Source: Devosia sp. 1566 (GTDB lineage Bacteria > Pseudomonadota > Alphaproteobacteria > Rhizobiales > Devosiaceae). From it: 64,000 bases of DNA. Below are positions 8,113-44,938 of this stretch, in pieces. The notes beneath the pieces are model-generated. The model searched no databases. It worked only from the letters and a program-made list of their open reading frames with translations, and had not been told where the DNA came from. A program made the position numbers and the translations under genes. Position 1 is the stretch's first letter. Every line of letters starts with the position of its first letter. Location of the stretch: positions 248,001-312,000 of the forward strand of contig NZ_CP034767.1 of assembly GCF_004005995.1 (NCBI RefSeq). The letters run 5' to 3'.

Positions 8113-9057
8113 CTATCGCCGATGCAGGCAGCTAAGATCCCCGTCGGTTTGCGGGGGCCACTCTTTAATCCGCAGATCACGAATGTGATCGAGAAGCGCC
8201 CGCAATTTTGGAGAGACCGTGCGTCTGCTAGGGAAGTAGATGAAGAAACCTGCGAAGGGCGGCAGCCAATCGTCCAGCACCGAAACCAACTCCCCTCTCT
8301 CCAAGTAGGGTTGGAAGGTTTCTTCGATGCCGAAGGTGATGCCGCCGCCCGCCAACGCCGTGCGAACCATCAACAACATGTCATTGGTCGTCACCTGAGG
8401 TTGCACGGCAACGTCGAAGGCCTGACCGTCCCGCTCGAATTCCCACCGATAGGGCGCAGATTGTGGATGCGGCCTCCAGCCGACGCATCGATGATTGGTG
8501 AGTTCTTTGGGATGCTGGGGCCAACCGTATTTCTCGAAATACTTCGGCGATGCTACGGCCACTTGCCGTTGCTGTCCGGTCACTGGAATGGCGACCATGT
8601 CCTTTTCGATCACCTCACCGAGACGGACACCAGCGTCGTATCCTGCGGCAACGATGTCGAATTCATCGTCCGAGACCGTCACGTCCAACGTGATGTTCGG
8701 ATAAGCTTCCGCGAATGAAGCGATGAGAGGGCCCGAGAGGAACCGCTCGGCGATGGAGGTGGCGGTGATCCGCAAAAGGCCCTTGGGCGCTCCAACCGCG
8801 TCCATCGCAGTCTCTAGGGTGGCTGTGATCTCGGCCAGGTGAGGGGCAACTCCCTCAAGCAGCTTTTCTCCAAATTCCGTCAAGCGGACGCTTCGTGTCG
8901 AACGCTGAAACAAGGGCTGAGACAAGATGTCTTCGAGCCGCTGAATGCCCTGGCTCACGGCAGAGCGCGTGACGCCGAGCCGGTCGGCAGCGGCCCGGAA
9001 CGTGCCGCCCTCGGCGACGGCCACAAAGACACGCAAAAGGTTCAGATCAATGGCCAT
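8113..9057 (-). CDS. LysR-family regulator divergent from an SDR gene
   Basis: This 314-aa protein has an N-terminal HTH (LLRVFVAVAEGGTFRAAADRLGVTRSAVSQGIQRLE) and a substrate-binding domain of the subgroup near residues 95-295 (RFLSGPLIASFAEAYPNITLDV, then DAGVRLGE). It converges on the previous LysR gene and is divergent from a short-chain dehydrogenase gene. A perfect palindrome lies immediately before its start codon, consistent with autoregulation. Confidence 0.9.
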   Translation of the reverse strand: MAIDLNLLRVFVAVAEGGTFRAAADRLGVTRSAVSQGIQRLEDILSQPLFQRSTRSVRLTEFGEKLLEGVAPHLAEITATLETAMDAVGAPKGLLRITATSIAERFLSGPLIASFAEAYPNITLDVTVSDDEFDIVAAGYDAGVRLGEVIEKDMVAIPVTGQQRQVAVASPKYFEKYGWPQHPKELTNHRCVGWRPHPQSAPYRWEFERDGQAFDVAVQPQVTTNDMLLMVRTALAGGGITFGIEETFQPYLERGELVSVLDDWLPPFAGFFIYFPSRRTVSPKLRALLDHIRDLRIKEWPPQTDGDLSCLHRR

Positions 9058-9058
9058 T

Positions 9059-9075
9059 GGTTAGCAAGGCTAACC
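9059..9075. promoter_or_regulatory. Perfect palindrome at the LysR start (candidate operator)
   Basis: GGTTAGC-AAG-GCTAACC is a 7-bp perfect dyad 2 bp upstream of the LysR ATG at 9057 and 126 bp upstream of the SDR start. Part of it doubles as the ribosome-binding region of the LysR message. It may be the regulator's own operator or a translation-limiting hairpin. Confidence 0.55.
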
Positions 9076-9200
9076 TCAGCATAGGGCAGAAGGCAAATTG
9101 TGTTTGCGGACTAAATTGCCATTCTTCAGGCCGACGGCAGCGTGGACAGACCGATCGGGGACTCGCCGTTGCCACCACAAGCGGGAAGAAGGAGAACACC

Positions 9201-9932
9201 ATGGGTCGCGAAGGCAAAGTCATTCTGATCACCGGGGCCAGCAGTGGCATCGGCGCCGGTATCGCCCGAGAACTGGGAGCAAGTGGGGCCAAGCTTATGC
9301 TCGGCGCCCGCCGAACGGACCGGCTCAAGGCCTTAGCAGAGGAAGTCAGGGCGAATGGCGGTCAAGCCGAGTTCGCTGAACTCGACGTCACCGACCGCGA
9401 GGGCATGGCGCACTTTGCCCAGACTGCGCTGGGCAAGTGGGGGCGTATCGATGTGCTCGTCAATAATGCTGGCGTAATGCCCCTTTCACCGCTCGATGCT
9501 CTCAAGGTCGATGAGTGGGAGCGCATGATCGACGTCAACATCAAAGGTGTGCTTTGGGGTATTGCGGCGGTGCTGCCCGCGATGAAGGCGCAAGCATCGG
9601 GTCAGATCATCAATGTCGGCTCAATAGGCGCGCTCGCCGTCACTCCGACCGCTGCGGTTTATTGCGCAACCAAGTTCGCGGTACGCGCCATCTCGGATGG
9701 TCTCAGGCAGGAGAGCGACACAATCCGGGTGACCTGCGTCAATCCTGGAGTCGTGGAATCCGAACTTGCATCCTCGATAACCGACCCAGCCACGGCAGAA
9801 GCGATGACCGAATGGCGGAGGATCAGCCTCCAGCCAGAGGCCATCGCCCGGGCGGTCCGGCACATCATCGAAGCGCCGGACAATGTCGACACCAATGAGA
9901 TCACCATTCGGCCCACTGCGGCGGCGCACTGA
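9201..9932 (+). CDS. Short-chain dehydrogenase/reductase
   Basis: A classical SDR of 243 aa from the ATG at 9201 (AAGGAG 7 bp upstream). It has the cofactor motif TGASSGIG (about 11-18), NNAG (about 88-91), the catalytic Ser in VGSIGAL and the YCATK active site. Arginines after the second strand (GARRTDR) suggest NADP preference. It belongs to the broad YdfG-like group; the substrate cannot be named. It is followed 14 bp later by an Atu4866-family gene, so the two probably form an operon controlled by the divergent LysR. Confidence 0.92.
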   Translation: MGREGKVILITGASSGIGAGIARELGASGAKLMLGARRTDRLKALAEEVRANGGQAEFAELDVTDREGMAHFAQTALGKWGRIDVLVNNAGVMPLSPLDALKVDEWERMIDVNIKGVLWGIAAVLPAMKAQASGQIINVGSIGALAVTPTAAVYCATKFAVRAISDGLRQESDTIRVTCVNPGVVESELASSITDPATAEAMTEWRRISLQPEAIARAVRHIIEAPDNVDTNEITIRPTAAAH

Positions 9933-9946
9933 GGAAGGCGAGGATC

Positions 9947-10273
9947 ATGAGATTGGCGCCAACTTGCCTGGCTATGACTCTCGTCCTGGCCAGTACCCCG
10001 ACATTTCCTCAAGACGGAGCAGACGCTATGCAGGCTCACCCCTATGTCGGCATGTGGGTTACGAAAGATGGATATGTCCGTCACCAACTGCTGCCTGATG
10101 GCCGATATGACGAAGCCCGGGGAAATCGCGAAAGTGCCTATCAGGGTCGCTATGAGATCGAGGGCGATCATATCGAGTATTGGGACGATACCGGTTTCAC
10201 CGCCGATGGCGATTTCCTCGATGGTGTTCTCCATCATGGCGGAATGGTGCTTTACCGCCGCTCCGAGAACTGA
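9947..10273 (+). CDS. Exported Atu4866-family protein
   Basis: This 108-aa protein has an N-terminal signal-like segment (MRLAPTCLAMTLVLASTPTF). The compact conserved domain of the Agrobacterium Atu4866 family follows (HPYVGMWVTKDGYVRHQLLPDG, then GRYEIEGDHIEYWDDTGFTADGDF). The family is a small beta-barrel-like fold of unknown function, found repeatedly beside SDR and other oxidoreductase genes. It is probably co-transcribed with the preceding SDR. Confidence 0.82.
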   Translation: MRLAPTCLAMTLVLASTPTFPQDGADAMQAHPYVGMWVTKDGYVRHQLLPDGRYDEARGNRESAYQGRYEIEGDHIEYWDDTGFTADGDFLDGVLHHGGMVLYRRSEN

Positions 10274-10387
10274 GCCAGGTACGGCCGCCTCTGGGAGCCG
10301 CATCCGGCGCAGCAATCACCCATGTGTGGCTTTGGACTAGGGAGGTGATGCGGTAGGAGTGGCTCACCTCGAACGAGGAGCACGGCC

Positions 10388-11761
10388 TTGCCCGCGACCG
10401 ACCGGCCTATCCTGCCGCCCCATGTTGAGCCCCATCGCAAGCCCTTATCTATCCTCCAGTCGGTGCGGGCTGCACGCCGCAACGTGCTCGAGATCATTCC
10501 CGCCATTGCTTATCAGCAACCTATAGTGTCGGGGCGAATGGGCGCGGCGCGCTGGCACATGGTGCAGGATCCGGCGTCCCTGCGGCGGATCTATCTCGAC
10601 AATGCGGCCAACTACCCTAAGTCCGAAGTCATGCTGCGCATGCTTCGCCCAGCCATCGGCAATAGTCTATTCACCGCCGAAGGCGCCGACTGGCGTTGGC
10701 AACGCCGCGCCGTCGCGCCGGTTTTTGCGCAGCGCAATGTTACAGCACTCGCGCCAGTGATGACGGCAACCGCGGAACGCGCCGCACAGCGGCTGCACAC
10801 GGCAGGGCCGCATGCCGAAATGCTGGGAGAAATGCTGACCGCTACCTTCGACGTCATCTGCGAGGTCGCCTTGTCGGGCCGTGAGCATTTCGATGCACGA
10901 GCCTATGGCGCGGCCATCATTCGGTATTTCGAGACCGCCGGACGGGCATCGCTTCTGGACTTTCTGCGCGTCCCCAGCTGGTTTCCGCGCCCAGGAGAAC
11001 TGCTGGGGTATAGCGCCGTCCACACCATGCACGACATGGTCGCCAAAGCCATCGAGGCTCGCCGCGAGCAAGCCACCGGTCAGGCTGATGATCTACTCGA
11101 TTTCATGCTCAAGGCCAATGATCCGGAAACCGGGCGCACAATGTCGCCTCAGGATGTGCTGCACAACATGCAGTTCTTCATCGTCGCGGGCCACGAAACC
11201 ACCGCGCTCGCGCTCAGCTGGGCCTTGCAGCTCCTGGCCATCTCCCCTCAGATCCAAGAAGAAGCCAGCGCGGAGGCACGGAGCGTTCTTGGCGATCAGC
11301 CTGCAAGGCTTGATCATCTTGAAGCCATGCCGCTCGGCCGCCGCATTCTTGAGGAATCCATGCGGCTTTATCCACCAGTGGGGTTGCTGGCCCGCGAAGT
11401 GCTCGCCAGCGACCGTTTGGCGGGCCGCGATATTTACGCCAATGACGTGATTTTCCTGCCGCTCTATGCGCTGCATCGCCATGCCATGCTGTGGGAAAAT
11501 CCTAACGTTTTCAACCCGGACCGCTTCCTGCCCGAACAGGTCAAGGCCCGTGATCGCTATGCCTATCTACCCTTTGGTGCAGGCCCGCGCGTTTGTGTCG
11601 GCGCCAATTTTGCCATGATGCAAGCGCAGATTATTTTGGGGACCCTACTGTCTCGTTTCCACTTCGGCCCGGGCCCGCGTGCGCTGCCTTCCCCGACCAT
11701 GCTGATGACCGTTCGTCCCGACACGGGGATCAACCTGCGTGTGACACCGCGGCATGCATGA
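10388..11761 (+). CDS. Cytochrome P450
   Basis: This 457-aa protein starts at a TTG with GAGGAG 7 bp upstream. All core motifs are present: I-helix AGHETT (267-272), ExxR (E323-R326, EESMR), and the haem loop FGAGPRVCVG with the thiolate ligand Cys403. It resembles soluble bacterial CYP102/CYP4-like monooxygenases, which hydroxylate fatty acids or other lipids. It has no fused reductase, and no ferredoxin or ferredoxin reductase gene is adjacent, so it needs redox partners from elsewhere. A 114-bp gap separates it from the Atu4866 gene. Its substrate is unknown. Confidence 0.93.
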   Translation: MPATDRPILPPHVEPHRKPLSILQSVRAARRNVLEIIPAIAYQQPIVSGRMGAARWHMVQDPASLRRIYLDNAANYPKSEVMLRMLRPAIGNSLFTAEGADWRWQRRAVAPVFAQRNVTALAPVMTATAERAAQRLHTAGPHAEMLGEMLTATFDVICEVALSGREHFDARAYGAAIIRYFETAGRASLLDFLRVPSWFPRPGELLGYSAVHTMHDMVAKAIEARREQATGQADDLLDFMLKANDPETGRTMSPQDVLHNMQFFIVAGHETTALALSWALQLLAISPQIQEEASAEARSVLGDQPARLDHLEAMPLGRRILEESMRLYPPVGLLAREVLASDRLAGRDIYANDVIFLPLYALHRHAMLWENPNVFNPDRFLPEQVKARDRYAYLPFGAGPRVCVGANFAMMQAQIILGTLLSRFHFGPGPRALPSPTMLMTVRPDTGINLRVTPRHA

Positions 11762-33038: not shown

Positions 33039-34019
33039 CTAGGCTCGCACGGCCCTGGCGCCGGGGAGCAGCTTCTTGATCTGGGTCCAGAGCGGGGAAA
33101 TCACATAGCCCACGACGGGGATCGCGACTGCACCCACAACCAGGCCGGCAATGGCATAGCCAAGTGTTTCGACCACCCAGCCGACCACGCCGCCAAGGGA
33201 CGCGGCCGCGGCCACCGCTGCGTCGTGGATCAGGTCGCCCACCCCGTGCAGCCCGAAATCGTGCACCCCATGCACGATGATGCTGCCGCCCACCCAGATC
33301 ATGGCAGCGGTGCCGACAACGGTCAGGCCGGTCATGAAATAGGGCATGCCCTTGACGATTGCGCGCCCGACAGCCCGAGTGAAGCTGCTGCCGCGCTGGG
33401 CCATCCAGAGGCCAGCATCGTCGGCTTTCACGATCAGCGCGACCGCACCATAAACGGCAGCCGTGATCCCGACTGCAACCAGGAAAAGCACGATGGCCTG
33501 GGTTACAAAGCTTTCGCCTGGCAGTTCGGCCAGGGCAATCGCCATGATCTCAGCGGACAAGATGAAATCGGTCTTGATGGCGCTGCCGACCTTGGTGTCT
33601 TCCATTGTGGTGGGGCTAAGGGCAACCGGTTCCAGCCCGGTTTCGTGGGCATGGGCGGCTTTGGGCGCCATCAGATGCCAGATTTTTTCGGCCCCCTCAT
33701 AGCAAAGATAGGCGCCGCCCAACATCAGCAGGGGCGTGATGGCCCAGGGCAGGAAGGTCCCCAGGATCAGGGCCGCCGGCAGCAGGAAGATCAGCTTGTT
33801 CTTGATCGAGCCGCCCGCGATCTTGCCCACGATCGGCAATTCGCGATCCGCGGTAAACCCGGTTAGGTATTTGGGAGTGACTGCCGCATCGTCGATCACG
33901 GCGCCGCTGGCCTTGAGTCCGGCCTTCATCGCCATGCCCGCGACATCATCGAGTGACGCCGCCGCCACTTTGGCGATGCCGGCGATATCGTCGAGCAGAC
34001 CGATTAAACCAACGCTCAT
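33039..34019 (-). CDS. DUF808 (YedI-like) inner-membrane protein
   Basis: This 326-aa protein starts at the ATG at 34019 (AAGGAG upstream). It has the family's opening (GLIGLLDDIAGIAKVAAASLDDVAGMAMKAG), the middle motif (ELPIVGKIAGGSIKNKLIFLLPAALIL) and about eight membrane segments, ending in a glycine-rich hydrophobic C-terminus. Function is unknown; DUF808 proteins are widespread and conserved. It is divergent from the peptide-type ABC operon but not obviously related to it. Confidence 0.9.
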   Translation of the reverse strand: MSVGLIGLLDDIAGIAKVAAASLDDVAGMAMKAGLKASGAVIDDAAVTPKYLTGFTADRELPIVGKIAGGSIKNKLIFLLPAALILGTFLPWAITPLLMLGGAYLCYEGAEKIWHLMAPKAAHAHETGLEPVALSPTTMEDTKVGSAIKTDFILSAEIMAIALAELPGESFVTQAIVLFLVAVGITAAVYGAVALIVKADDAGLWMAQRGSSFTRAVGRAIVKGMPYFMTGLTVVGTAAMIWVGGSIIVHGVHDFGLHGVGDLIHDAAVAAAASLGGVVGWVVETLGYAIAGLVVGAVAIPVVGYVISPLWTQIKKLLPGARAVRA

Positions 34020-34245
34020 TGCATTCGGCTCCTTTGCTAGTGGCTTGATGCCATCTCTTGCTGGCCAACTACAAAGCTCAACCGCGCGATACGTTGCCAC
34101 CCGCGGCGCTTAGCAGCAGGCCCTCGGACCGAGCAAGGCAAGAACGCAGCCTTGGTCCACCCCCTAGGAGCGGCCCAGCCTCTTTTTGCGCGGACGCTTG
34201 ACCAAATTAGCTCGAAGTGAAACCATCAGTCCGTAAGAACAACAT

Positions 34246-34267
34246 ATGTTCCGCTGTTGTGGAACAT
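34246..34267. promoter_or_regulatory. IclR-type operator before the peptide-type ABC operon
   Basis: ATGTTCC and GGAACAT are perfect arms flanking GCTGTTGT, giving the TTCCGC...GYGGAA shape typical of IclR-family operators. It ends 12 bp before the binding-protein ATG at 34280. The IclR gene at the end of this ten-gene unit is the obvious ligand-responsive regulator. Confidence 0.72.
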
Positions 34268-34279
34268 GGAGGGATTGGA

Positions 34280-35815
34280 ATGAGGCATTTTGCTCTAGCA
34301 TTGGCGACCAGCCTGGTTGCCCTGTGTTCCGCCAACGGTCTGGCCTATGCCCAGACGGCTGGCGGGATCGTGGATGTGGCAACCATCGGGGAGCCGCCAA
34401 CGCTCGATCCGATGGCTTCGACAGCCGACTTGGTCGGCATTGTCAGCCAGCATATGTTCGAAACGCTCTACACCTTCGATGCCCAGTGGGGCACCACCCC
34501 ATTGCTCGCCGCAGCAATGCCCGAAATTTCGGAAGACGGCACCGTTTATACCATCCCCCTACGCACCGGCATCAAGTTCCACGACGACAGCGTCATGACC
34601 TCGGCCGATGTGGTCGCATCGCTTGAGCGCTGGATGAAGATTGCCACCCGCGGCAAGCAGGCGGCCGAAGTCATCACCGACATCGCCGCAACCGACGACG
34701 CCACGGTTACTATCACGCTAAGCAAGCCTTACGCTCCACTGCTGCCGCTCCTTGCGTTCAACAACGCGGCCGCAATCATCATTCCGGCGGCCAATGCCAG
34801 CCAGGACCCGCTCGAAAGCTTCATCGGCACCGGCCCCTACAAGCTCGAGCAGCGCGTTCCTGACCAGTATATCCAGCTCGTGCGCTTCGACGGCTACCAA
34901 TCGCTTGAAGGCGAGGGCAATGGCTATGGCGGTGCGCGGCACCAGTATCTCGACGAAATCCGCTTCGTGCCGGTCCCTGATCCCAACACGCGCATCGGCG
35001 CGGCAGTGGCTGGCCAGTACGACTATGTCGATCAGCTGCCGGTCGAGGCTTTCGACCAGATCAGCGGTGGCGCCACCGAGCCGGTCGTTTTTGCGCCATT
35101 CGGCTGGCCCGTGTTCATGATGAACCATTCTGAAGGCCTCGCCTCCGACATCCGGGTGCGCAAGGCAATCCAGGCGGCCCTCGCGCCCGAGGACATGTTG
35201 TTTGCCGCCTTTGGTTCGGACGAGTTCTTCACCGCCGAGGGCGCCTGGTATCCTGAAGGCTATGCCTGGCATTCCGATGTTGGCACCGAAGCCTACAAGC
35301 CCATGGGCGACACCGAAACAGCCAAGGCCCTGCTGGCGGAAGCCGGCTATGATGGCTCCAAGCCGCTGCGCATCCTGACCAGCCGCCAGTATGAGTTCCA
35401 CTACAAGATGGCACTGGTTGCCCAGTCTTACCTGGAAGCTGCCGGCTTCAAGGTGCAAATGGACGTGGTCGAGTGGGCGACGCTCACCACCAATCGCGCC
35501 GATCCGGCCCTTTGGGATGTCTACATCACCCACAGCCCGTTCCTGCCCGAGCCTTCGCTGATGGGCATCATGTCCGATACCGGCCCTGGCTGGTGGGTGA
35601 GCGATGCCAAGCACAAGGTTCTGGAAGCCTTCAATGCCGAAAGCGATCCGGCCAAGCGCGCCGAGTTGTTCGTCGAGGTCCAGAAGGTCATCTATGACGA
35701 AGTACCTGGCTACAAGGTCGGCAACTTCAATGCCCTGGCCGCACAGAACCCGGCTCTCGACGGCGTAACACCCGCCCCATGGCCCTATTTCTGGAATGCC
35801 TATCTGACCGAATAG
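34280..35815 (+). CDS. Peptide/nickel-type (DppA-like) ABC substrate-binding protein
   Basis: A 511-aa SBP_bac_5 protein from the ATG at 34280 (GGAGGG upstream). It has a signal peptide (MRHFALALATSLVALCSANGLAYA) and the family signatures (GEPPTLDPMASTADLVGIVSQHMFETLYTFD; LRTGIKFHDDSVMTSADVVASLERW). The family binds peptides, glycosides, opines and related solutes. Together with the amidohydrolase and PLP enzyme downstream, an N-acylated or D-amino-acid-like ligand is plausible (inference). Confidence 0.93.
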   Translation: MRHFALALATSLVALCSANGLAYAQTAGGIVDVATIGEPPTLDPMASTADLVGIVSQHMFETLYTFDAQWGTTPLLAAAMPEISEDGTVYTIPLRTGIKFHDDSVMTSADVVASLERWMKIATRGKQAAEVITDIAATDDATVTITLSKPYAPLLPLLAFNNAAAIIIPAANASQDPLESFIGTGPYKLEQRVPDQYIQLVRFDGYQSLEGEGNGYGGARHQYLDEIRFVPVPDPNTRIGAAVAGQYDYVDQLPVEAFDQISGGATEPVVFAPFGWPVFMMNHSEGLASDIRVRKAIQAALAPEDMLFAAFGSDEFFTAEGAWYPEGYAWHSDVGTEAYKPMGDTETAKALLAEAGYDGSKPLRILTSRQYEFHYKMALVAQSYLEAAGFKVQMDVVEWATLTTNRADPALWDVYITHSPFLPEPSLMGIMSDTGPGWWVSDAKHKVLEAFNAESDPAKRAELFVEVQKVIYDEVPGYKVGNFNALAAQNPALDGVTPAPWPYFWNAYLTE

Positions 35816-35904
35816 GTCCCCATCCGGCTTCGTGCCGCCTGTCGCGTCTTCGGTCGCGGCAGGCCTTTTGTCCATCAGCTTCGACGGGGATTTTCCAGAG
35901 CATC

Positions 35905-36846
35905 ATGATCCGCTCCGCACTCAATCGCATATTCGGCATGTTGGTCGTAATGGCGCTGGTGGTTACCATCGTGTTTGTCATTGTGCGCGTGACGCCCGGC
36001 GATCCCGCAGCCGTCATGCTCGGCCCCGACGCAACGGCAGCCGATATTGCCAGCTTGCGCCAGCGCCTTGGCCTTGATGCTTCCATTCCGCAGCAATTCA
36101 TCAGCTATGTCGGGGGCGTACTGCGCGGCGATTTCGGACAGTCCATCTTCCTCAACATGCCGGTGACCACAGCACTGATGCAGCGCGCGGAACCGACCTT
36201 TTTCCTGACGATATTTGCCCTGCTGATCGCGACCCTGATCGCCTTGCCCGTTGGCGTGCTGTCGGCCTATTGGCGCGGCTCGGCGTTTGACCAGGCAGCA
36301 ACCGCCCTTGCCATGTTTGCGGCCTCGGTCCCCAGCTTCTGGCTCGGGTTGATCTTCATGCAGGTTTTTGCCGTACAGCTTGGGTGGTTCGATACCTCCG
36401 GCTATGGCGGCCCTGGCGCCAGCTTTGGCGAACGAATGCATCACCTGGTGTTGCCCGCGACGACCCTTGGCCTGATCAGCTCGGCGCTGATCACCCGGTT
36501 CACCCGCGCCTCGATGCTCGATGTCCTAAACGATGATTATGTGCGCACCGCCCGCTCCAAGGGCATGAGCGAGTGGCGTGTCGTGGTCAAGCATGCGCTC
36601 AAGAACGCCCTGATCCCGATCCTAACCGTGATTGGCCTGACCGCAGCCCTGCTGATCTCGGGCGCTATCGTTACTGAAACCGTGTTCGGCCTGCCCGGCG
36701 TGGGCAGCCTCATTGTTTCAGCCGTGCTGCGCCGCGACTATCCCTTGATCCAGGGTGCCCTGCTGGTGGTGGCCGGGCTTTATGTCCTCGTCAATTTCAT
36801 CATCGACATGCTCTACCTCCTCGTCGACCCTCGGGTGCGTTACTGA
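35905..36846 (+). CDS. DppB-type ABC permease
   Basis: This 313-aa protein starts at the ATG at 35905. It has the first transmembrane segment (RIFGMLVVMALVVTIVFVIVRVTPGDPA) and the EAA-type loop (DDYVRTARSKGMSEWRVVVKHALKNALIPILT), ending LLVDPRVRY, all typical of DppB/OppB. It overlaps the next permease start by one base (TGATG). A 90-bp gap after the binding-protein gene may allow differential expression. Confidence 0.93.
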   Translation: MIRSALNRIFGMLVVMALVVTIVFVIVRVTPGDPAAVMLGPDATAADIASLRQRLGLDASIPQQFISYVGGVLRGDFGQSIFLNMPVTTALMQRAEPTFFLTIFALLIATLIALPVGVLSAYWRGSAFDQAATALAMFAASVPSFWLGLIFMQVFAVQLGWFDTSGYGGPGASFGERMHHLVLPATTLGLISSALITRFTRASMLDVLNDDYVRTARSKGMSEWRVVVKHALKNALIPILTVIGLTAALLISGAIVTETVFGLPGVGSLIVSAVLRRDYPLIQGALLVVAGLYVLVNFIIDMLYLLVDPRVRY

Positions 36847-37709
36847 TGGCTGCTGTTGCACAAAGCGGGTTTCGCGAACCCAATCTGCTGATGAAGATTG
36901 CCAGCCGCCCCACGGCGTTGGCGGGTCTGGTGATTATCGTCGCCATGATCCTGCTGGCTTTGCTGGCGCCGGTTATTTCGCCCTATGACCCCGCGCAATT
37001 GTCAGTGCGCAACCGGCTGCAGCCACCGAGCTGGCTGCACCTGTTCGGCACCGACGATCTGGGTCGCGACATCCTTACCCGCGTGCTGTATTCGGGTCGC
37101 ACCTCGATCGCGGTTGGCTTTGCCGTGGTGATTTTCGCCTCGGTGATCGGGGTGTTCCTGGGGCTGATGTCGGGCTTTTTCCGCAGGCTCGATACGCCAG
37201 TATCGCGCCTGATCGACGCTATGATGGCCTTTCCCGACATCCTGCTCGCCATTGCCCTGGTGGCGGCGCTGGGGGCGTCGGCGACCAATGTGGTGATCGC
37301 GCTTGGCGTGGTTTATGCCCCCCGGCTTGCTCGCGTCGTGCGTGCCTCGACTCTCGTGATCCGCGAACTGCCCTATGTGGAAGCGGCGCGGGCACTTGGC
37401 GTGCCAACGCATGTTACCCTCGTGCGCCACGTCCTGCGCAACGTCACCTCGCCCCTGCTGGTGCAAGCCACCTTCATCTTTGCCAATGCGATCCTTGCCG
37501 AAGCCGGGCTGTCGTTCCTGGGCGTCGGTATTTCACCCGATATCCCCACCTGGGGCACGATGATCTCCGTGGGCCGCCAATATCTGGAACAGGCCCCCTG
37601 GATCATGTGGTTCCCGGGCGGCGCCATCATCCTCACCGTACTTTCACTGCAACTCGTGGGCGACGGTCTGCGCGATTTTCTTGATCCGCGCCTCGCCAAG
37701 GATGTCTGA
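36846..37709 (+). CDS. DppC-type ABC permease
   Basis: This 287-aa inner-membrane protein has the OppC N-terminal region (HLFGTDDLGRDILTRVLYSGRTSI) and EAA loop (YVEAARALGVPTHVTLVRHVLRNVTSPLLV). It is translationally coupled on both sides: its start overlaps the DppB-type stop, and its stop overlaps the amidohydrolase ATG. Confidence 0.94.
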   Translation: MAAVAQSGFREPNLLMKIASRPTALAGLVIIVAMILLALLAPVISPYDPAQLSVRNRLQPPSWLHLFGTDDLGRDILTRVLYSGRTSIAVGFAVVIFASVIGVFLGLMSGFFRRLDTPVSRLIDAMMAFPDILLAIALVAALGASATNVVIALGVVYAPRLARVVRASTLVIRELPYVEAARALGVPTHVTLVRHVLRNVTSPLLVQATFIFANAILAEAGLSFLGVGISPDIPTWGTMISVGRQYLEQAPWIMWFPGGAIILTVLSLQLVGDGLRDFLDPRLAKDV

Positions 37710-38925
37710 TGTTCGATAACCGTTTCAAACCGCAAGCACAGAACCTCTTGATCAAGGGCGCCAAGCCCGTCGGCTTCGCCCAGCCGGAGCTGCCGCCGGT
37801 GCTCGATGTGCTGGTTGGCGCCGATGGGGCCATTCTCGATATCAGCGCGAGCCTGACCGCCGACAACGCCAAGACCGTTGCCGCGAACGGCGCCTTCATT
37901 TCGCCTGGCTGGACCGATCTGCATGCCCATGTCTGGTATGGCGGCACCGATATCTCCATTCGCCCCGAACAGGGCGGCGCGGCGCGTGGCGTCACCACCA
38001 TCGTCGATGCGGGATCGGCCGGCGAAGCCAATTTCCATGGCCTTCGCGAATTCATCATCGAGCCGGCGCGCGAGAACATCTACGCCTTTCTCAATCTCGG
38101 CTCGATCGGCCTCGTCGCCTGCAACCGCGTGACCGAGCTGCAGGACATGCGCTCGATCGATCTCGATCGCACCATCGCCGTGATCCGGGAAAACCGTGAC
38201 GTCATCATTGGCATCAAGGTTCGCGCCAGCGCGGTGATCTCTGGCGGCTGGGACCTGGTACCGCTCAAGCTGGCCAAAAAACTGAGCCGCGTGCTTGATC
38301 TGCCGGTAATGGTGCATGTCGGCGAGCCCCCTCCGCTTTATGATGACGTGCTGGGCCTGTTGAGCGAGGGCGACATCGTCACCCACTGCTTCAACGGCAA
38401 GCAGGGCGGCTCGATCATCGAGGACGATGATCTGTTCCGGCTGGCCGAAGACGCCGCCAAGCGCGGCATCATCCTCGATGTCGGCCATGGCGGCGCGTCG
38501 TTCTCGTTTGATGTCGGCAAGGCCGCGCTCGAGCGGGGTCTGCTGCCCAACACCATTTCCACGGATCTGCACAATCGCTCGCTCGACACTTCGGTATGGG
38601 ATCTCGCCACCACGATGAGCAAGCTACTCTCGCTGGGCATGGGCATGGAGGATGTGGTCATCGCCTCGTCCACGGCCCCCAAGCGCGCGATCCGCAAGCC
38701 GGCCGACAATCTGCTGGCCAAGGGCAAGCCGGCCGAGTTCACCTTGTTCGACCTCGTCGATGGCGATCTGGTGGTGACCGATAGCCAGGGCGCCACGAGC
38801 ACGCTGCACCAGACCTTTGAGCCACGCTACGCCATTCTGGGCGCCGAGGCCGTGGTTGCACATCGTCACCACCCGATTCCCGCCGGGGCGCCGGGCCACA
38901 AATGCCCCAGCTGCGGGTGGACTGC

Positions 38926-38929
<4 letters not shown>
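37709..38929 (+). CDS. Amidohydrolase/deacetylase-family metallohydrolase (cog3964-like)
   Basis: A 406-aa amidohydrolase-superfamily TIM barrel. Metal ligands are visible as H72-x-H74 (DLHAHVW), probable carboxylated K170 (GIKVRAS), H203 (MVHVGE), H226 (THCFNG) and D286 (STDLHN). The group is often mislabelled dihydroorotase. Studied members hydrolyse alpha-acetoxy or N-acetyl carboxylates such as acetyl-mandelate or N-acetyl-D-amino-acid derivatives. The C-terminus ends in a short HRHHPIPAG...C399-P-S-C402 tail that looks like an added metal-binding knuckle. It sits inside the ABC operon with overlapping start and stop codons, so it probably acts on the imported solute. Confidence 0.87.
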
Positions 38930-40913
<1,984 letters not shown>

Positions 40914-40933
40914 TATTTGTTGGAGTTCCATTT

Positions 40934-41425
40934 ATGAGCATTTCCGAGCTGGCCACGCGCCCGGATGCGTCCCCCTATGAGCGGCTCAAGGCGCTGGGGA
41001 TCGTCTTGCCCGCAGCGCCCTCGCCGATCGCCAATTTTGTGACCCATGTGATCGATGGCAAGCTGTTGTTCCTGTCAGGGCAGGGGCCGACCGAGACCGA
41101 CGGCACGCTCCACACCGGCAAGGTGGGCGCCGATGTTTCGGTTGATGCGGCCTATGCCCATGCCCGCCTTACCGGCATCAATCTGATTGCCGTGATGCAG
41201 GCGGCCTTGGGCGATCTGGGGCGCGTGCGCCGCATCGTCAAGCTGCTCGGCATGGTCAATGCGACGCCCGATTTCGAGGCCCATCCCGCTGTCATCAATG
41301 GCTGCTCGGATCTGATGATCGAAGTGTTCGGCGAGCAAGGGGTGCATGCGCGCTCCGCCGTGGGCTTTGGCTCGCTGCCCAACCAGATCACCGTGGAAAT
41401 CGAAGCCATCGTCGCCTTTGACTGA
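40934..41425 (+). CDS. RidA-family protein of the ABC/PLP cluster
   Basis: A 163-aa protein from the ATG at 40934. It belongs to the longer RidA subgroup (LGIVLPAAPSPIANFVTHVIDGKLLFLSGQGP, then VNATPDFEAHPAVINGCSDLMIEVFGEQGVHARSAVGFGSLP). The residues ARSAVG hold the conserved Arg found in catalytically competent RidA. It may hydrolyse 2-aminoacrylate or another enamine released by the PLP enzyme encoded next, a pairing also seen in amino-acid catabolic operons. Confidence 0.88.
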   Translation: MSISELATRPDASPYERLKALGIVLPAAPSPIANFVTHVIDGKLLFLSGQGPTETDGTLHTGKVGADVSVDAAYAHARLTGINLIAVMQAALGDLGRVRRIVKLLGMVNATPDFEAHPAVINGCSDLMIEVFGEQGVHARSAVGFGSLPNQITVEIEAIVAFD

Positions 41426-41491
41426 GCCGATCCGGCCCAACCCAATCGCTGCCGCATCAACCGGGCAGCCCATCAATCGAGAGTTATTTGC

Positions 41492-42688
41492 ATGACACAG
41501 GATATTCGCAGCCAGCTGGGACTTCGTCCGGTGATCAACGTTTCGGGCACCATGACCTCCCTGGGCGCCTCGATCGTCGTTCCCCAAGCCGTGGATGCCA
41601 TTACGCGCGTCCTCACCGAGTTCGTGGAAATGGGCGCCCTGCATCGGCGCGCCAGCGACGCTATCGCCGATCTGACGGGTGCCGAGGCCGGCTTTGTCAC
41701 CGCTTCATGCTCGGCCGCGATCAGTCTCGCTGTGGCGGCCGCGATTACGGGCGACAATCTCTGGGCGATCGAGCAGCTTCCCGATGCGGGCAGCCTCAAG
41801 AATGAAGTCCTGATCCAGACCGGCCATATGGTCAGCTATGGCGCGCCGGTGGAACAGGCCATTCGCATTGCCGGCGGCAAGGTGATGCCGGTCGGCCAGG
41901 CCACCAGCGCCCACGGCTATCAGCTTGAAGGCGCCATCACCGAGCGGACTGTTGCTGCGGTGTTTGTTGTGTCGCACCACGTCGTCGATTACGCGCAGAT
42001 CCCGCTCAAGACCTTCGCCGAGATTTGCCATGCCCGCGGCGTCAAGGTGATCGTCGACGCCGCATCCGAATACGACCTGCGCAAGTTCCTGGCCGATGGC
42101 GCCGATGTGGTGCTGTACTCGGGCCACAAGTTCCTGGGTGGGCCGACCTCGGGTATTTGCGCCGGCGACAAGGAATTCATCCGCAACATCTATCTGCAGA
42201 ACCGCGGCATCGGCCGGGGCATGAAGGTGGGCAAGGAAGGCATTGCCGGCGTCATCGCGGCTCTGGAAGCCTGGAAAGTGCGCGACCACGACGGCATCCG
42301 CGCGCGCGAACAGGCCGCACTCGATCTCTGGCTTGAAACCCTGGCCGACAAGGCCGGCGTAACCGCCACCATTGTGCCCGATCCCACCGACAATCCGCTG
42401 GATCGACTTAAGGTGACGATCAATCCAGAACTGGCACGCATCACGGCCTGGGACCTTGCCCGCGCCCTCGCAACCGGGCCGCGCCCCATCATCGTGCGCG
42501 ACCACGAAGCCGAGCATGGGCATTTCTTCCTCGACCCGTGCAATCTGCACCCCAATGAAGAAACGGTCGTGGCCGAACGGCTGGTCGAAGAGCTCGAAGC
42601 GGCCCGCGGCTCCAATGAAATCATTGCCACGCCAATCCATGAACATTGGCGTGCGCAAGAGGCTGCTATATTGAAGTGGCTCGACTAA
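41492..42688 (+). CDS. SelA-like PLP-dependent enzyme (DgaE-type ammonia-lyase/aminotransferase)
   Basis: This 398-aa fold-type I PLP protein is related to L-seryl-tRNA(Sec) selenium transferase. Asp189 (VIVDAASEYD) and the Schiff-base lysine K213 (YSGHKFLGGPTSG) are in place. No selenocysteine genes are nearby. SelA-like paralogues such as D-glucosaminate-6-phosphate ammonia-lyase (DgaE) eliminate ammonia from D-amino compounds. In combination with the amidohydrolase and RidA, deacylation followed by deamination of an imported D-amino-acid derivative is a coherent inference. The exact reaction is unknown. Confidence 0.85.
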   Translation: MTQDIRSQLGLRPVINVSGTMTSLGASIVVPQAVDAITRVLTEFVEMGALHRRASDAIADLTGAEAGFVTASCSAAISLAVAAAITGDNLWAIEQLPDAGSLKNEVLIQTGHMVSYGAPVEQAIRIAGGKVMPVGQATSAHGYQLEGAITERTVAAVFVVSHHVVDYAQIPLKTFAEICHARGVKVIVDAASEYDLRKFLADGADVVLYSGHKFLGGPTSGICAGDKEFIRNIYLQNRGIGRGMKVGKEGIAGVIAALEAWKVRDHDGIRAREQAALDLWLETLADKAGVTATIVPDPTDNPLDRLKVTINPELARITAWDLARALATGPRPIIVRDHEAEHGHFFLDPCNLHPNEETVVAERLVEELEAARGSNEIIATPIHEHWRAQEAAILKWLD

Positions 42689-42732
42689 ACGCCTAGACGG
42701 GCGGCACAGCGGTTGAACGACGGGACAGTGTA

Positions 42733-43521
42733 GTGAGCGACATCCTTAGTGCAACTGAGCCGGTTCGTCGGACGCGCACCAGCGGCATCGATCGGGCGCT
42801 GCAGATCTTTGATCATCTGCAGCAGCTCGAACGATCCGCCACTGCCTACGAAATTGCGAGAGCGGTCGGTGCGCCGCTCTCGACCATTTATGCAATCATC
42901 GACGATCTCGTCGACAAGGATCTGCTGGACCGCGACAGCAACGGGCTGATCTGGTTTGGCCCGCGGATGTATCATTATGGCTTGAGCTATGCGCGCAGCC
43001 TCGATTTGCTGAGCGCGGCGACCCAGGAGATGCACGAACTGGCGCGGCTGTCGGGCGAGACGGTGCAGATCTGCGGCCGCGACCAGGACATGATGGTGGT
43101 GCTGGCCATGGAAGATGGCACTGGCCAGTTCAATGTCAGCTCTCGAGTGGGCTCGCGCAGCCCGCTCAACTGGACTGCTTCGGGCAGGCTGCTGGTCGGC
43201 CACCTGCCACGCGAGGAACTGCTGGGCATCTTCGCGCGCTCCGCCCGCGTGTCCCCGACCGGCCGGGCCGAAACCGACCCTGCGGTGCTCGCCGACAATG
43301 CCCATGAGGCGCTGGCGCAGGGCCTCTCCATCCAGGCCGGCGAGTCGGATTATGCCGTAGCCTGCATCGCCGCGCCCGTATTGGATCGGAGCGGTCACTG
43401 TCACGCCACCATGTCCATCGTGGTGCCCGAACACAAAGTGCAGCAAAAAGACCCCGATCTCATCGCCCTGGTGCGCGACAGCGCTCGCCGGGTGGAAAGC
43501 CGGTTGGGCTGGCTGCGCTGA
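42733..43521 (+). CDS. IclR-family regulator of the ABC/amidohydrolase cluster
   Basis: A 262-aa protein from a GTG at 42733. It has an N-terminal winged HTH (SGIDRALQIFDHLQQLERSATAYEIARAVGAPLSTIYAIIDDLVDKDLL, about 16-66) and a GAF-like IclR effector domain (about 80-255). It is the last gene of the plus-strand unit that starts at 34280, 44 bp after the PLP gene. The TTCCGC-type dyad at 34246-34267 is its probable binding site. Confidence 0.88.
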   Translation: MSDILSATEPVRRTRTSGIDRALQIFDHLQQLERSATAYEIARAVGAPLSTIYAIIDDLVDKDLLDRDSNGLIWFGPRMYHYGLSYARSLDLLSAATQEMHELARLSGETVQICGRDQDMMVVLAMEDGTGQFNVSSRVGSRSPLNWTASGRLLVGHLPREELLGIFARSARVSPTGRAETDPAVLADNAHEALAQGLSIQAGESDYAVACIAAPVLDRSGHCHATMSIVVPEHKVQQKDPDLIALVRDSARRVESRLGWLR

Positions 43522-43596: not shown

Positions 43597-43620
43597 ACAC
43601 ATAAGTCTGTGCTTATGTGT
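43597..43620. promoter_or_regulatory. ArsR operator (perfect 9-bp dyad)
   Basis: ACACATAAG (43597-43605) and CTTATGTGT (43612-43620) are perfect arms with a 6-bp spacer, ending 5 bp before the ArsR ATG. A possible alternative GTG start (43617) falls inside it. Its location over the start region indicates tight autorepression. Confidence 0.83.
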
Positions 43621-43625
43621 CGGAC

Positions 43626-43940
43626 ATGAGTGACGTGGATATCTTCAAGGTCCTGGCTGATCCGACCCGTCGCGGTGTGCTCGAGCGGCTTGCTGCCGCC
43701 GAGATGACGGCGACCGAACTGCGACAGGGCCTCGCGATATCCCAACCCGCCATGTCGCAGCACCTGGCAGTGCTGCGTCAGGCGGGTTTGATCAGCGAGC
43801 GGCGCGAAGGCCGTTTCGTCAACTACCGCGTTGAACCCGATGGTTTGGCGCCACTGCATCAATGGCTGGCTCGATATCGCGCCTTCTGGCCCGATCGCAT
43901 CGAGTCCCTCAAGGATGTGCTCAAGGAGATGGACCAGTGA
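43626..43940 (+). CDS. ArsR-family repressor
   Basis: This protein of about 104 aa is a single winged HTH (VLADPTRRGVLERLAAAEMTATELRQGLAISQPAMSQHLAVLRQAGLISERREGRFVNYRV). It has no metal-binding ELCVCD motif, so it is the non-metal subgroup that partners SRPBCC proteins. Its stop overlaps the next gene's GTG (GTGA). It presumably represses the two-gene unit. Confidence 0.9.
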   Translation: MSDVDIFKVLADPTRRGVLERLAAAEMTATELRQGLAISQPAMSQHLAVLRQAGLISERREGRFVNYRVEPDGLAPLHQWLARYRAFWPDRIESLKDVLKEMDQ

Positions 43941-44278
43941 AGATCGATGCAGATGCCTTGGTGTTCGAATGCGCTCTTGAAGCTGCTCCCGAAAAGGTCT
44001 GGCGGGCGCTGACCATCCCGGTGTTGCTGGAGCGGTGGCTGCGCCCTGCGCCGGGCCTGGAGCTTTCAGTGGTCAACGCCGAGGAAAACCATACTCTCAC
44101 CTATCGCTGGCGCGAGCAGGGGCAGGGGGCCGTCGTCGGGGCAGAGGAAAGCCTCGTGACCTTCGAGCTCACCCCAACCGATGAAGGGGGCACCTGGCTG
44201 ACGCTGACCCACGCACCGGCGCTTGCCCCAGCCAGCGCCAACGACAATCGGCGCGGCCCCCTGATGCTGGCCGCCTGA
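43937..44278 (+). CDS. SRPBCC/AHSA1-domain protein (short)
   Basis: A 113-aa protein starting at GTG, coupled to the ArsR stop. It has the START-like N-terminal pattern (FECALEAAPEKVWRALTIPVLLERWL) and central strands (LTYRWREQG, VTFELTPTDEGGTWLTLTH). It ends in the Ala-rich ANDNRRGPLMLAA tail seen in rhizobial proteins. It is shorter than normal AHSA1 proteins (about 140-160 aa) and lacks the long C-terminal helix that closes the ligand cavity. Function is unknown. Confidence 0.82.
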   Translation: MKIDADALVFECALEAAPEKVWRALTIPVLLERWLRPAPGLELSVVNAEENHTLTYRWREQGQGAVVGAEESLVTFELTPTDEGGTWLTLTHAPALAPASANDNRRGPLMLAA

Positions 44279-44314
44279 CCCAAGCCAAACAGCAGCTTTG
44301 AATGGAGATCGCCC

Positions 44315-44938
44315 ATGCGCGACATGATGCAGCTCGTCCCTATGGTCGTGGAACAATCAAGCCGGGGCGAAAGATCATTTGATATTTACTCGCGCCTGCT
44401 GCGCGAGCGGATCATCTTCGTCAATGGCGAAGTCGAGGACAACATGGCTTCGCTGGTCTGCGCGCAGCTGCTCTTTCTTGAGGCGGAAAACCCCAAAAAG
44501 GAGATCTACCTCTACATCAACTCGCCCGGTGGGGCGGTGACCTCGGCCATGGCGATGTATGACACGATGCAGTTCATCAAGGCGCCGGTGGGAACGCTTT
44601 GCATGGGCATGGCGATGTCCGCGGGATCGTTCCTCTTGATGGCGGGCGCGCCGGGCAGCCGCATCTGCCTGCCCAATGCGTCGATCATGCTGCACCAGCC
44701 GAGCGGCGGCTTTCAGGGCAAGGTCACCGACATTCTCCTGCATGCCGAGGAAAGCATGCGCCTTAAGCGGCGGATGCATAATCTTTATGCCAAGCATTGC
44801 GGCCGCACCTATGAGGAAGTGGAGAAGGCCCTCGAACGCGACAATTTCATGACCCCCGAACAAGCCCGCGACTGGGGACTGGTAGATCATGTTTACCATG
44901 ATCGCAGTGAAATCGAGGGCGGCGAAGCGCAGCCCTGA
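44315..44938 (+). CDS. clpP: ATP-dependent Clp protease proteolytic subunit (accessory ClpP)
   Basis: This 207-aa protein has a complete catalytic triad (Ser102 in GMAMSAGSF, His127 in MLHQPSGG, Asp176 in ERDNFMTPE) and the INSPGGAVT strand. The active-site strand MGMAMSAGS differs from the canonical GQAASMGA, which suggests an accessory paralogue. It has no clpX nearby; an hsp20 and a lon gene follow. It would form 14-mer barrels with a Clp ATPase encoded elsewhere. Confidence 0.94.

Follow-up and report, generated by a model that had tools for sequence, protein, structure and literature searches.

A conserved nine-gene operon of a Devosia-like bacterium with a possible role in the catabolism of N-acyl 2-amino-2-deoxy-aldonates

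Positions 34246 to 43521 of a 64-kb window (the whole stretch of DNA analyzed), taken from a single-contig genome of 4.17 Mb that resembles those of Devosia species, its nearest named relatives as judged by the PLP enzyme described below, hold an inverted repeat followed by nine genes, all on the plus strand (34280–43521). These encode an ATP-binding cassette (ABC) importer, a cog3964-type amidohydrolase, a RidA-family protein, a SelA-like enzyme dependent on pyridoxal phosphate (PLP), and an IclR-family regulator. Judged from gene content, conservation, the operator, and the residues retained in its proteins, the locus is very likely a real, conserved, and co-regulated catabolic unit. Its substrate is a more tentative matter. 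The reading we favor, with a probability just short of even, is that the operon catabolizes an N-acyl 2-amino-2-deoxy-aldonate, with N-acetyl-D-glucosaminate (GlcNAc1A) as the leading candidate.

In the proposed pathway, the Dpp-type ABC importer would take in the N-blocked compound, and the cog3964 enzyme would strip the acyl group to give D-glucosaminate, the free 2-amino-aldonate. Next, the SelA/DgaE-like PLP enzyme would eliminate the 3-hydroxyl to yield an imine, RidA would hydrolyze the imine to 2-keto-3-deoxygluconate (KDG) and ammonia, and a kinase and a 2-keto-3-deoxy-6-phosphogluconate (KDPG) aldolase encoded outside the operon would complete the breakdown. The IclR protein would repress from the operator ahead of the first gene until a ligand is present. 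The substrate, the order of the reactions, and the direction of regulation are what we infer from the features described below. That a beta-hydroxy (D-)amino acid undergoes N-deacylation and then PLP-dependent elimination is likely, and N-acetyl-D-glucosaminate or an epimer in particular has slightly less than an even chance of being the substrate. The same succession of uptake, deacylation, PLP-dependent elimination, clearance by RidA, and IclR control of the first gene was sketched in the initial annotation of this DNA, and conservation, active-site residues, and operator footprinting all support it. The features, from open reading frame reading and family model searches, are as follows.

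34246..34267, no strand: IclR-type operator ATGTTCCGC-TGTT-GTGGAACAT, inverted repeat ATGTTCC-N8-GGAACAT
34280..35815, plus strand: family-5 (Dpp/Opp-type) solute-binding protein, 511 aa (PF00496, 237 bits)
35905..36846, plus strand: ABC permease 1, DppB/OppB-like (PF00528, PF19300)
36846..37709, plus strand: ABC permease 2, DppC/OppC-like (PF00528, PF12911)
37709..38929, plus strand: cog3964/EF_0837-type amidohydrolase, predicted N-deacylase (PRK09237, 405 bits; 2ogj, 503 bits)
38926..39945, plus strand: ABC ATPase 1, DppD/OppD-like (PF00005, PF08352)
39942..40913, plus strand: ABC ATPase 2, DppF/OppF-like (PF00005, PF08352)
40934..41425, plus strand: RidA-family protein (YjgF_endoribonc), predicted imine/enamine deaminase (PF14588, 82 bits)
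41492..42688, plus strand: SelA/DgaE-like PLP enzyme, predicted 2-amino-aldonate (or beta-hydroxy-D-amino-acid) ammonia-lyase (TIGR01437, 315 bits, and NF047797, 298 bits, both below cut-off)
42733..43521, plus strand: IclR-family regulator, predicted ligand-responsive repressor of the operon (PF01614 and PF09339, both above cut-off)

Family models in the region comprise SBP_bac_5, BPD_transp_1 (two), ABC_tran/oligo_HPY (two), the cog3964-type amidohydrolase, RidA, SelA-like, and IclR. All components named at the outset were thus found, but in nine genes rather than the ten first counted, position 34246 being the start of the operator and not of a gene. Start codons were chosen by the analyst, and longer open reading frames are possible for four of the nine genes. 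An interval of 89 bp separates the binding-protein gene from the first permease gene, after which stop/start overlaps of 1, 1, 4, and 4 nt link permease, permease, amidohydrolase, ATPase, and ATPase. Gaps of 20, 66, and 44 bp precede the RidA, SelA-like, and IclR genes, respectively. The initial annotation had six genes packed with overlapping codons and ending in IclR; four overlaps chain five genes, and IclR follows a gap.

Conservation of the neighborhood, on which the initial annotation had staked the unit, was looked for and found. Scanning genomes with the PLP enzyme yielded 22 loci, 16 of them close (58–89% identity; L002–L017), and 11 of the close ones have the complete nine-gene set inside 15 kb. 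Three of the incomplete close loci are cut by contig ends (L005, L007, L012) and one by the end of the stretch taken (L010), and the locus of Elioraea (L009) has just RidA, PLP enzyme, and IclR at at least 44% identity. In a second set of 55 loci, the PLP enzyme (at least 44%) occurs in 51 and all nine genes, again inside 15 kb, in 26, and all nine are present in five of ten loci from plasmid records. These counts are not random, since a locus was included for its PLP enzyme or its amidohydrolase, nor are they independent, since some loci of different sets are from the same strains. The PLP enzyme is patchy within the genus, being found in 15 of 75 same-genus genomes (E ≤ 1e-40), and only 10 of 398 genomes in a phylum sample have it (E ≤ 1e-70).

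Co-occurrence of the two enzymes was counted by hand in an order sample of 297 genomes, the close clades being those above 300 bits for the amidohydrolase and above 360 bits for the PLP enzyme, plus G296 (two fragments). The amidohydrolase is present in 20 genomes, the PLP enzyme in 30, and both in 18, which places the PLP enzyme in 18 of 20 genomes with the amidohydrolase versus 12 of 277 others (Fisher p 5e-19, without correction for relatedness). The two genes are at most 10 kb apart in 15 of the 18 genomes, about 52 kb apart in G281, about 30 kb apart in G023, and on separate short contigs in G296. When 29 of 40 amidohydrolase-bearing genomes were checked for the PLP enzyme, all 29 were positive; G202 has an amidohydrolase without the PLP enzyme. 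The genes that flank the unit in the window appear unrelated to it: upstream is a DUF808 gene on the opposite strand (33039–34022), and downstream (43617–44938) are an ArsR and AHSA1-domain pair, then ClpP. In three genomes of one family (L073, L075, L076), a double-cupin protein of ~300–330 aa adjoins the cluster (Pfam was run on L076 alone).

Over 381 residues, the amidohydrolase shares 60% identity (503 bits) with the protein of Protein Data Bank entry 2ogj, which we take to be Atu3266 of Agrobacterium (Ornelas et al. 2013, Biochemistry 52:228). The window enzyme scores 405.4 bits with PRK09237 (NCBIfam NF006689), above the cut-off of 371, and 26.7 bits with Pfam PF22647, slightly below the cut-off of 27. 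Within its clade, H72, H74, K170, H203, and H226 are present in 55 of 55 rows and D286 in 54 of 55; by analogy with the superfamily, these six are probably metal ligands. Close kin of the solved enzyme reside in this cluster, because a homologue 98% identical to the 2ogj protein (genome G548) lies in a locus (L158) that runs binding protein, two permeases, amidohydrolase, RidA, IclR on the opposite strand, PLP enzyme, and ATPase pair. Atu3266 is reported to have acetyl-(R)-mandelate as best substrate, with very poor activity on N-acetyl-D-serine and a preference for (R) substrates. The D configuration at C2 of D-glucosaminate would fit that preference. Ring opening by a dihydroorotase or hydantoinase, which the initial annotation had offered beside deacylation, was rejected; the pyrC model scores only 24 bits.

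For the PLP enzyme, the closest solved relative is DGL (246 bits), with 38.5% identity over 366 residues. The window enzyme scores 315 bits with TIGR01437, below cut-off, and 297.9 bits with NF047797, where the cut-off is 600. Selenocysteine synthase SelA was rejected as an identity (TIGR00474, 64.1 bits versus a cut-off of 267.9). According to the DGL paper, whose text numbers the PLP lysine 217, His163 protonates the enamine, after which the imine leaves; the phosphate was placed by manual docking at R301, R332, and R346 and the carboxylate at R226 (PMC9529869). With DGL numbering and these roles, residues were surveyed in 83 relatives (75 after removal of rows 95% alike). The PLP lysine is kept in all 83 and the His162/His163 pair in 71, and the window enzyme has all three. 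Likewise, R301 is kept in 83 of 83 and R332 in 82 of 83. The position of R346 is cysteine in 78 of 83 (70 of 75 dereplicated), including Cys350 of the window enzyme; the remainder have Arg (L144), Met (L018 and L019), Ser (L065), or Val (L097). The R226 position is variable, with Arg in 37 of 83 and Asp in the window enzyme. Cysteine at R346 together with retention of R301 and R332 fits an unphosphorylated substrate imported by the ABC system. In a quick tree of 65 rows, rooted at the midpoint and with several long branches, DGL, the Bartonella enzyme L144, and L018 stand apart from the other 62 (SH-aLRT 87).

Several relatives of the PLP enzyme occur in other surroundings. Two same-genus genomes (G323 and G320; L098, positions 8779–11237, and L099) have tandem SelA-like enzymes, 68% and 56% identical to that of the window; RidA lies next to them, as do genes for a PAAT importer and a DAO-family protein. 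His-Ser replaces His-His in the second enzyme, and the pair may perhaps form a hetero-oligomer. A DAO-family gene is also found upstream of the cluster in Sinorhizobium meliloti (L142). In Latescibacterota, distant relatives (31–32%; L018, L019) have a conserved neighborhood, the L018 gene adjoining creatininase, Amidohydro_2, and polysaccharide-deacetylase-like genes. Relatives of 48–50% identity occur in L094 and L095 (G231, G071), the former having as neighbors FemAB/GNAT, ATP-grasp-like, and amidase genes together with a sugar-type ABC importer, possibly a different pathway. One relative (L041; G259 C57:6714–7811) has a single in-frame TAA and is possibly a decaying gene. Neighbors of distant relatives, including proline racemase, PALP, Asp/Glu racemase, SDR, and amidase genes, suggested no consistent substrate.

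Conservation extends to the RidA protein, where Arg140, in our reading the counterpart of the catalytic residue Arg105 in E. coli RidA, is present in 71 of 71 relatives.

Clues to the substrate also come from uptake. The binding protein has Phe, within the motif HSPFLPEP, at the position of DppA Asp408 in 47 of 47 orthologues. We take Asp408, allowing for a 28-residue signal peptide offset, to be the residue that binds the alpha-ammonium group. Import of free peptides was rejected on this ground, since with Phe for the amine-binding Asp the protein would hardly serve a peptide with a free amine. Three importer types accompany the clade of the PLP enzyme: Dpp ABC, PAAT ABC, and porin plus GntP. 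The Dpp importer is nearly always paired with the amidohydrolase. The PAAT importer mostly occurs without it (L079, L082, L083, L098, L099, L186; assigned by Pfam in L082 and by similarity in the others), in which case it may be the free amino acid that is imported. A porin and GntP permease, again without the amidohydrolase, are found in Paraburkholderia (L145, L188), Caballeronia (L183), and L184, in loci whose IclR, Rid, and lyase proteins are 58–61%, 63–67%, and 59–62% identical to those of the window. On the simplest reading of these arrangements, the amidohydrolase would make inside the cell what the PAAT and GntP systems import directly. The GntP proteins of L188 and L184 score 480 and 489 bits with the gluconate:H+ symporter subfamily model, above its cut-off of 293. 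Gluconate-type GntP and kinship with DGL together point to a 2-amino-aldonate, with room left for D-serine.

The operator, ATGTTCC-N8-GGAACAT, was read at 34246–34267 and ends 12 bp ahead of the ATG of the first gene (34280), just as first noted, and the regulator has both the IclR_C and HTH_IclR domains. The exact repeat is present in a single copy in the genome, with five other sites at two mismatches, and related sites recur in other genera. A consensus, ATATTCC-N8-GGAATAT, was scored in 45 non-redundant stretches 5′ of binding-protein genes. At a threshold of 11/14, 21 of the 45 have a site, each with p ≤ 0.01 over 200 shuffles, although these p values overstate because the consensus was drawn after sites had been inspected; the test is partly circular, and the shuffles were mononucleotide. 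The other 24 fall below the threshold, among them near relative L002 with a score of just 9. Sites of at least 11 precede the usually internal amidohydrolase gene in 2 of 35 stretches (L143 and L155, the same site), the PLP-enzyme gene in 5 of 72, and the IclR gene in 6 of 54. The operator seems to accompany orthologues of the window IclR, because it lies between the IclR and PLP-enzyme genes in four of four GntP loci (12/14; L145 and L188 near-identical) and reaches at best 8/14 in five PAAT-importer loci with a distant IclR (29–38%; L083 and L186 near-identical). In Rhizobium johnstonii 3841 (pRL11; L143), the amidohydrolase and IclR genes are ~34 kb from the importer, RidA, and lyase genes, with the 11/14 site before the lone amidohydrolase. 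R. etli CIAT 652 (pA; L138) has the same split over ~25 kb, with an operator-like site of only 9/14.

Within the literature searched, a collection without most subscription journals, the cluster is undescribed, and Atu3266 and glucosaminate dehydratase are unmentioned; passages of two R. leguminosarum papers name no gene that could be placed in it. The initial annotation knew of no characterized pathway with this exact set. For the enzyme families this stands in the literature searchable, but the order of steps is known from the ong pathway of Pseudoalteromonas prydzensis (PMC9537276). There, GlcNAc1A is deacetylated, deaminated to KDG, and then phosphorylated, and the complete pathway is reported in Gammaproteobacteria and one Betaproteobacterium (PMC9537276, PMC12017989). 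The same sources describe OngB as a D-aminoacylase-type mononuclear Cys/His/His enzyme and the deaminase OngC as fold type III (PMC9537276, PMC12017989), OngC as active also on D-serine and D-threonine, and OngD as an essential RidA protein whose role was left open by the authors (PMC9537276).

Import, de-N-acetylation before phosphorylation, PLP-dependent deamination, RidA, and a dedicated repressor are, on the pathway proposed here, common to both systems. The ong cluster has SSS and TonB-dependent receptor transporters, an RpiR regulator, KdgK, and a hexosaminidase, whereas the nine-gene unit has a Dpp ABC importer, IclR, and no kinase; KdgK, hexosaminidase, SSS transporter, and RpiR are all absent from its nine genes. 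The deacetylases differ in kind, the best models for that of the window being PRK09237/EF_0837, with none of the 11 listed named D-aminoacylase. Nor is the fold-type III deaminase matched, as the window has matches to SelA, TIGR01437, and NF047797, families presumably of another fold type. A RidA gene is shared (40934–41425), with the invariant Arg140. The DGL system shares a lyase of the PLP-dependent ammonia-lyase family with conserved Lys and His-His, but has phosphotransferase system (PTS) uptake, a phosphorylated substrate, and a DgaF aldolase, with no deacylase or RidA described for the pathway (PMC9529869); its phosphate-binding Arg346 is Cys350 in the window. A third comparison is the EF_0837-type cluster of Bartonella sp. 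HY761 (L144), on a 56 kb plasmid with type VI secretion genes. It shares a metallohydrolase of the amidohydrolase/deacetylase family and a DgaE-kin lyase, but that lyase retains Arg346, and a KDGP aldolase, a BglG regulator, and DUF4310–4312 stand in place of the ABC importer, RidA, and IclR.

Several observations weigh against GlcNAc1A catabolism as proposed. The operon has no KDG kinase or aldolase, unlike the ong and dga clusters. In favor of the proposal, the genome does hold a KDPG aldolase (227 bits) with a PfkB kinase ~0.65 kb away, and a DgoK/DgoA-type pair; no model names the PfkB protein KDG kinase. A search of the 4.17 Mb for LPMO_10 (PF03067) found none, so GlcNAc1A from chitin would need to come from other organisms. 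One same-genus locus (L102; G306) has the other eight genes and no amidohydrolase at at least 44% identity. The importers are not strict alternatives, since L010 and L011 carry a PAAT-like importer alongside the Dpp importer and amidohydrolase. Equivalog models of the GntP family, which includes the D-serine transporter DsdX, rank the L188 and L184 proteins in mixed order, none above cut-off (gluconate model NF011560, 397 and 405 bits; gluconate model NF007781, 334 and 339; DsdX, 318 and 320; gluconate model NF007459, 306 and 303). Finally, the best substrate reported for Atu3266 is acetyl-(R)-mandelate rather than a sugar acid.

Other substrates were also considered. An operon for N-acyl small beta-hydroxy D-amino acids (D-serine, D-threonine, D-allo-threonine), with the lyase as a D-serine/D-threonine dehydratase, has perhaps a one-in-five standing in our estimation. 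PAAT importers adjoin the lyase, as does the DAO-family gene in L098 and L099, and the DsdX scores exceed those of one gluconate model (NF007459). The top GntP models are nonetheless gluconate, two of the three distal arginines are kept where a three-carbon substrate would not need them, and Atu3266 is reportedly very poor on N-acetyl-D-serine. In favor of small D-amino acids is also the activity of OngC on D-serine and D-threonine (PMC9537276). Retention of R301 and R332 with cysteine at R346 could alternatively mean that the two arginines bind a second carboxylate, in an N-acyl D-amino acid of the beta-hydroxy-D-aspartate/glutamate type or an opine. Among solved relatives of the binding protein, AgaA, which presumably binds an opine, ranks second. 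We consider such a substrate unlikely, as GntP-type import is ill-suited to dicarboxylic amino acids and the IclR protein is only weakly like BhcR (108 bits versus a cut-off of 350).

Two further explanations are less probable again. If the amidohydrolase were to act as an esterase on O-acyl (R)-2-hydroxy acids, its 60% identity to 2ogj and the acetyl-(R)-mandelate activity reported for that protein would be accounted for, and the PLP enzyme would act on an unrelated compound. This is improbable given that the two enzymes co-occur (18 of 20) in one operator-controlled unit, that an ammonia-lyase cannot use a hydroxy acid as substrate, and that cleavage of an activated ester often outpaces that of the natural amide. 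A true D-glucosaminate-6-phosphate pathway would suit the finding that no solved protein is closer to the PLP enzyme than DGL (246 bits), but is very improbable when the nine genes include no PTS or kinase, an arginine of the phosphate cluster is replaced by cysteine in 78 of 83 relatives, and NF047797 gives 298 bits against a cut-off of 600.

Should GlcNAc1A be the physiological substrate of the Atu3266 family, and the clade with cysteine at R346 be lyases for unphosphorylated D-glucosaminate, rhizobia, Devosia, and relatives would have a second, independently built GlcNAc1A pathway, a proposal to which we give somewhat less than an even chance. Close relatives of the PLP enzyme occur on 195 plasmid records, 136 of them from Rhizobium, and in many soil and root-associated bacteria. 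They bear names like selenium transferase or aminotransferase, and 2ogj is named dihydroorotase. A known substrate would correct many annotations and give the structural-genomics enzyme 2ogj a biological role. The cluster is also a setting for testing the role of RidA in this chemistry, which was left open for OngD. If the proposed pathway is true, these soil bacteria would be consumers of oxidized chitin made by others, which raises the question of which soil organisms use oxidized chitin.

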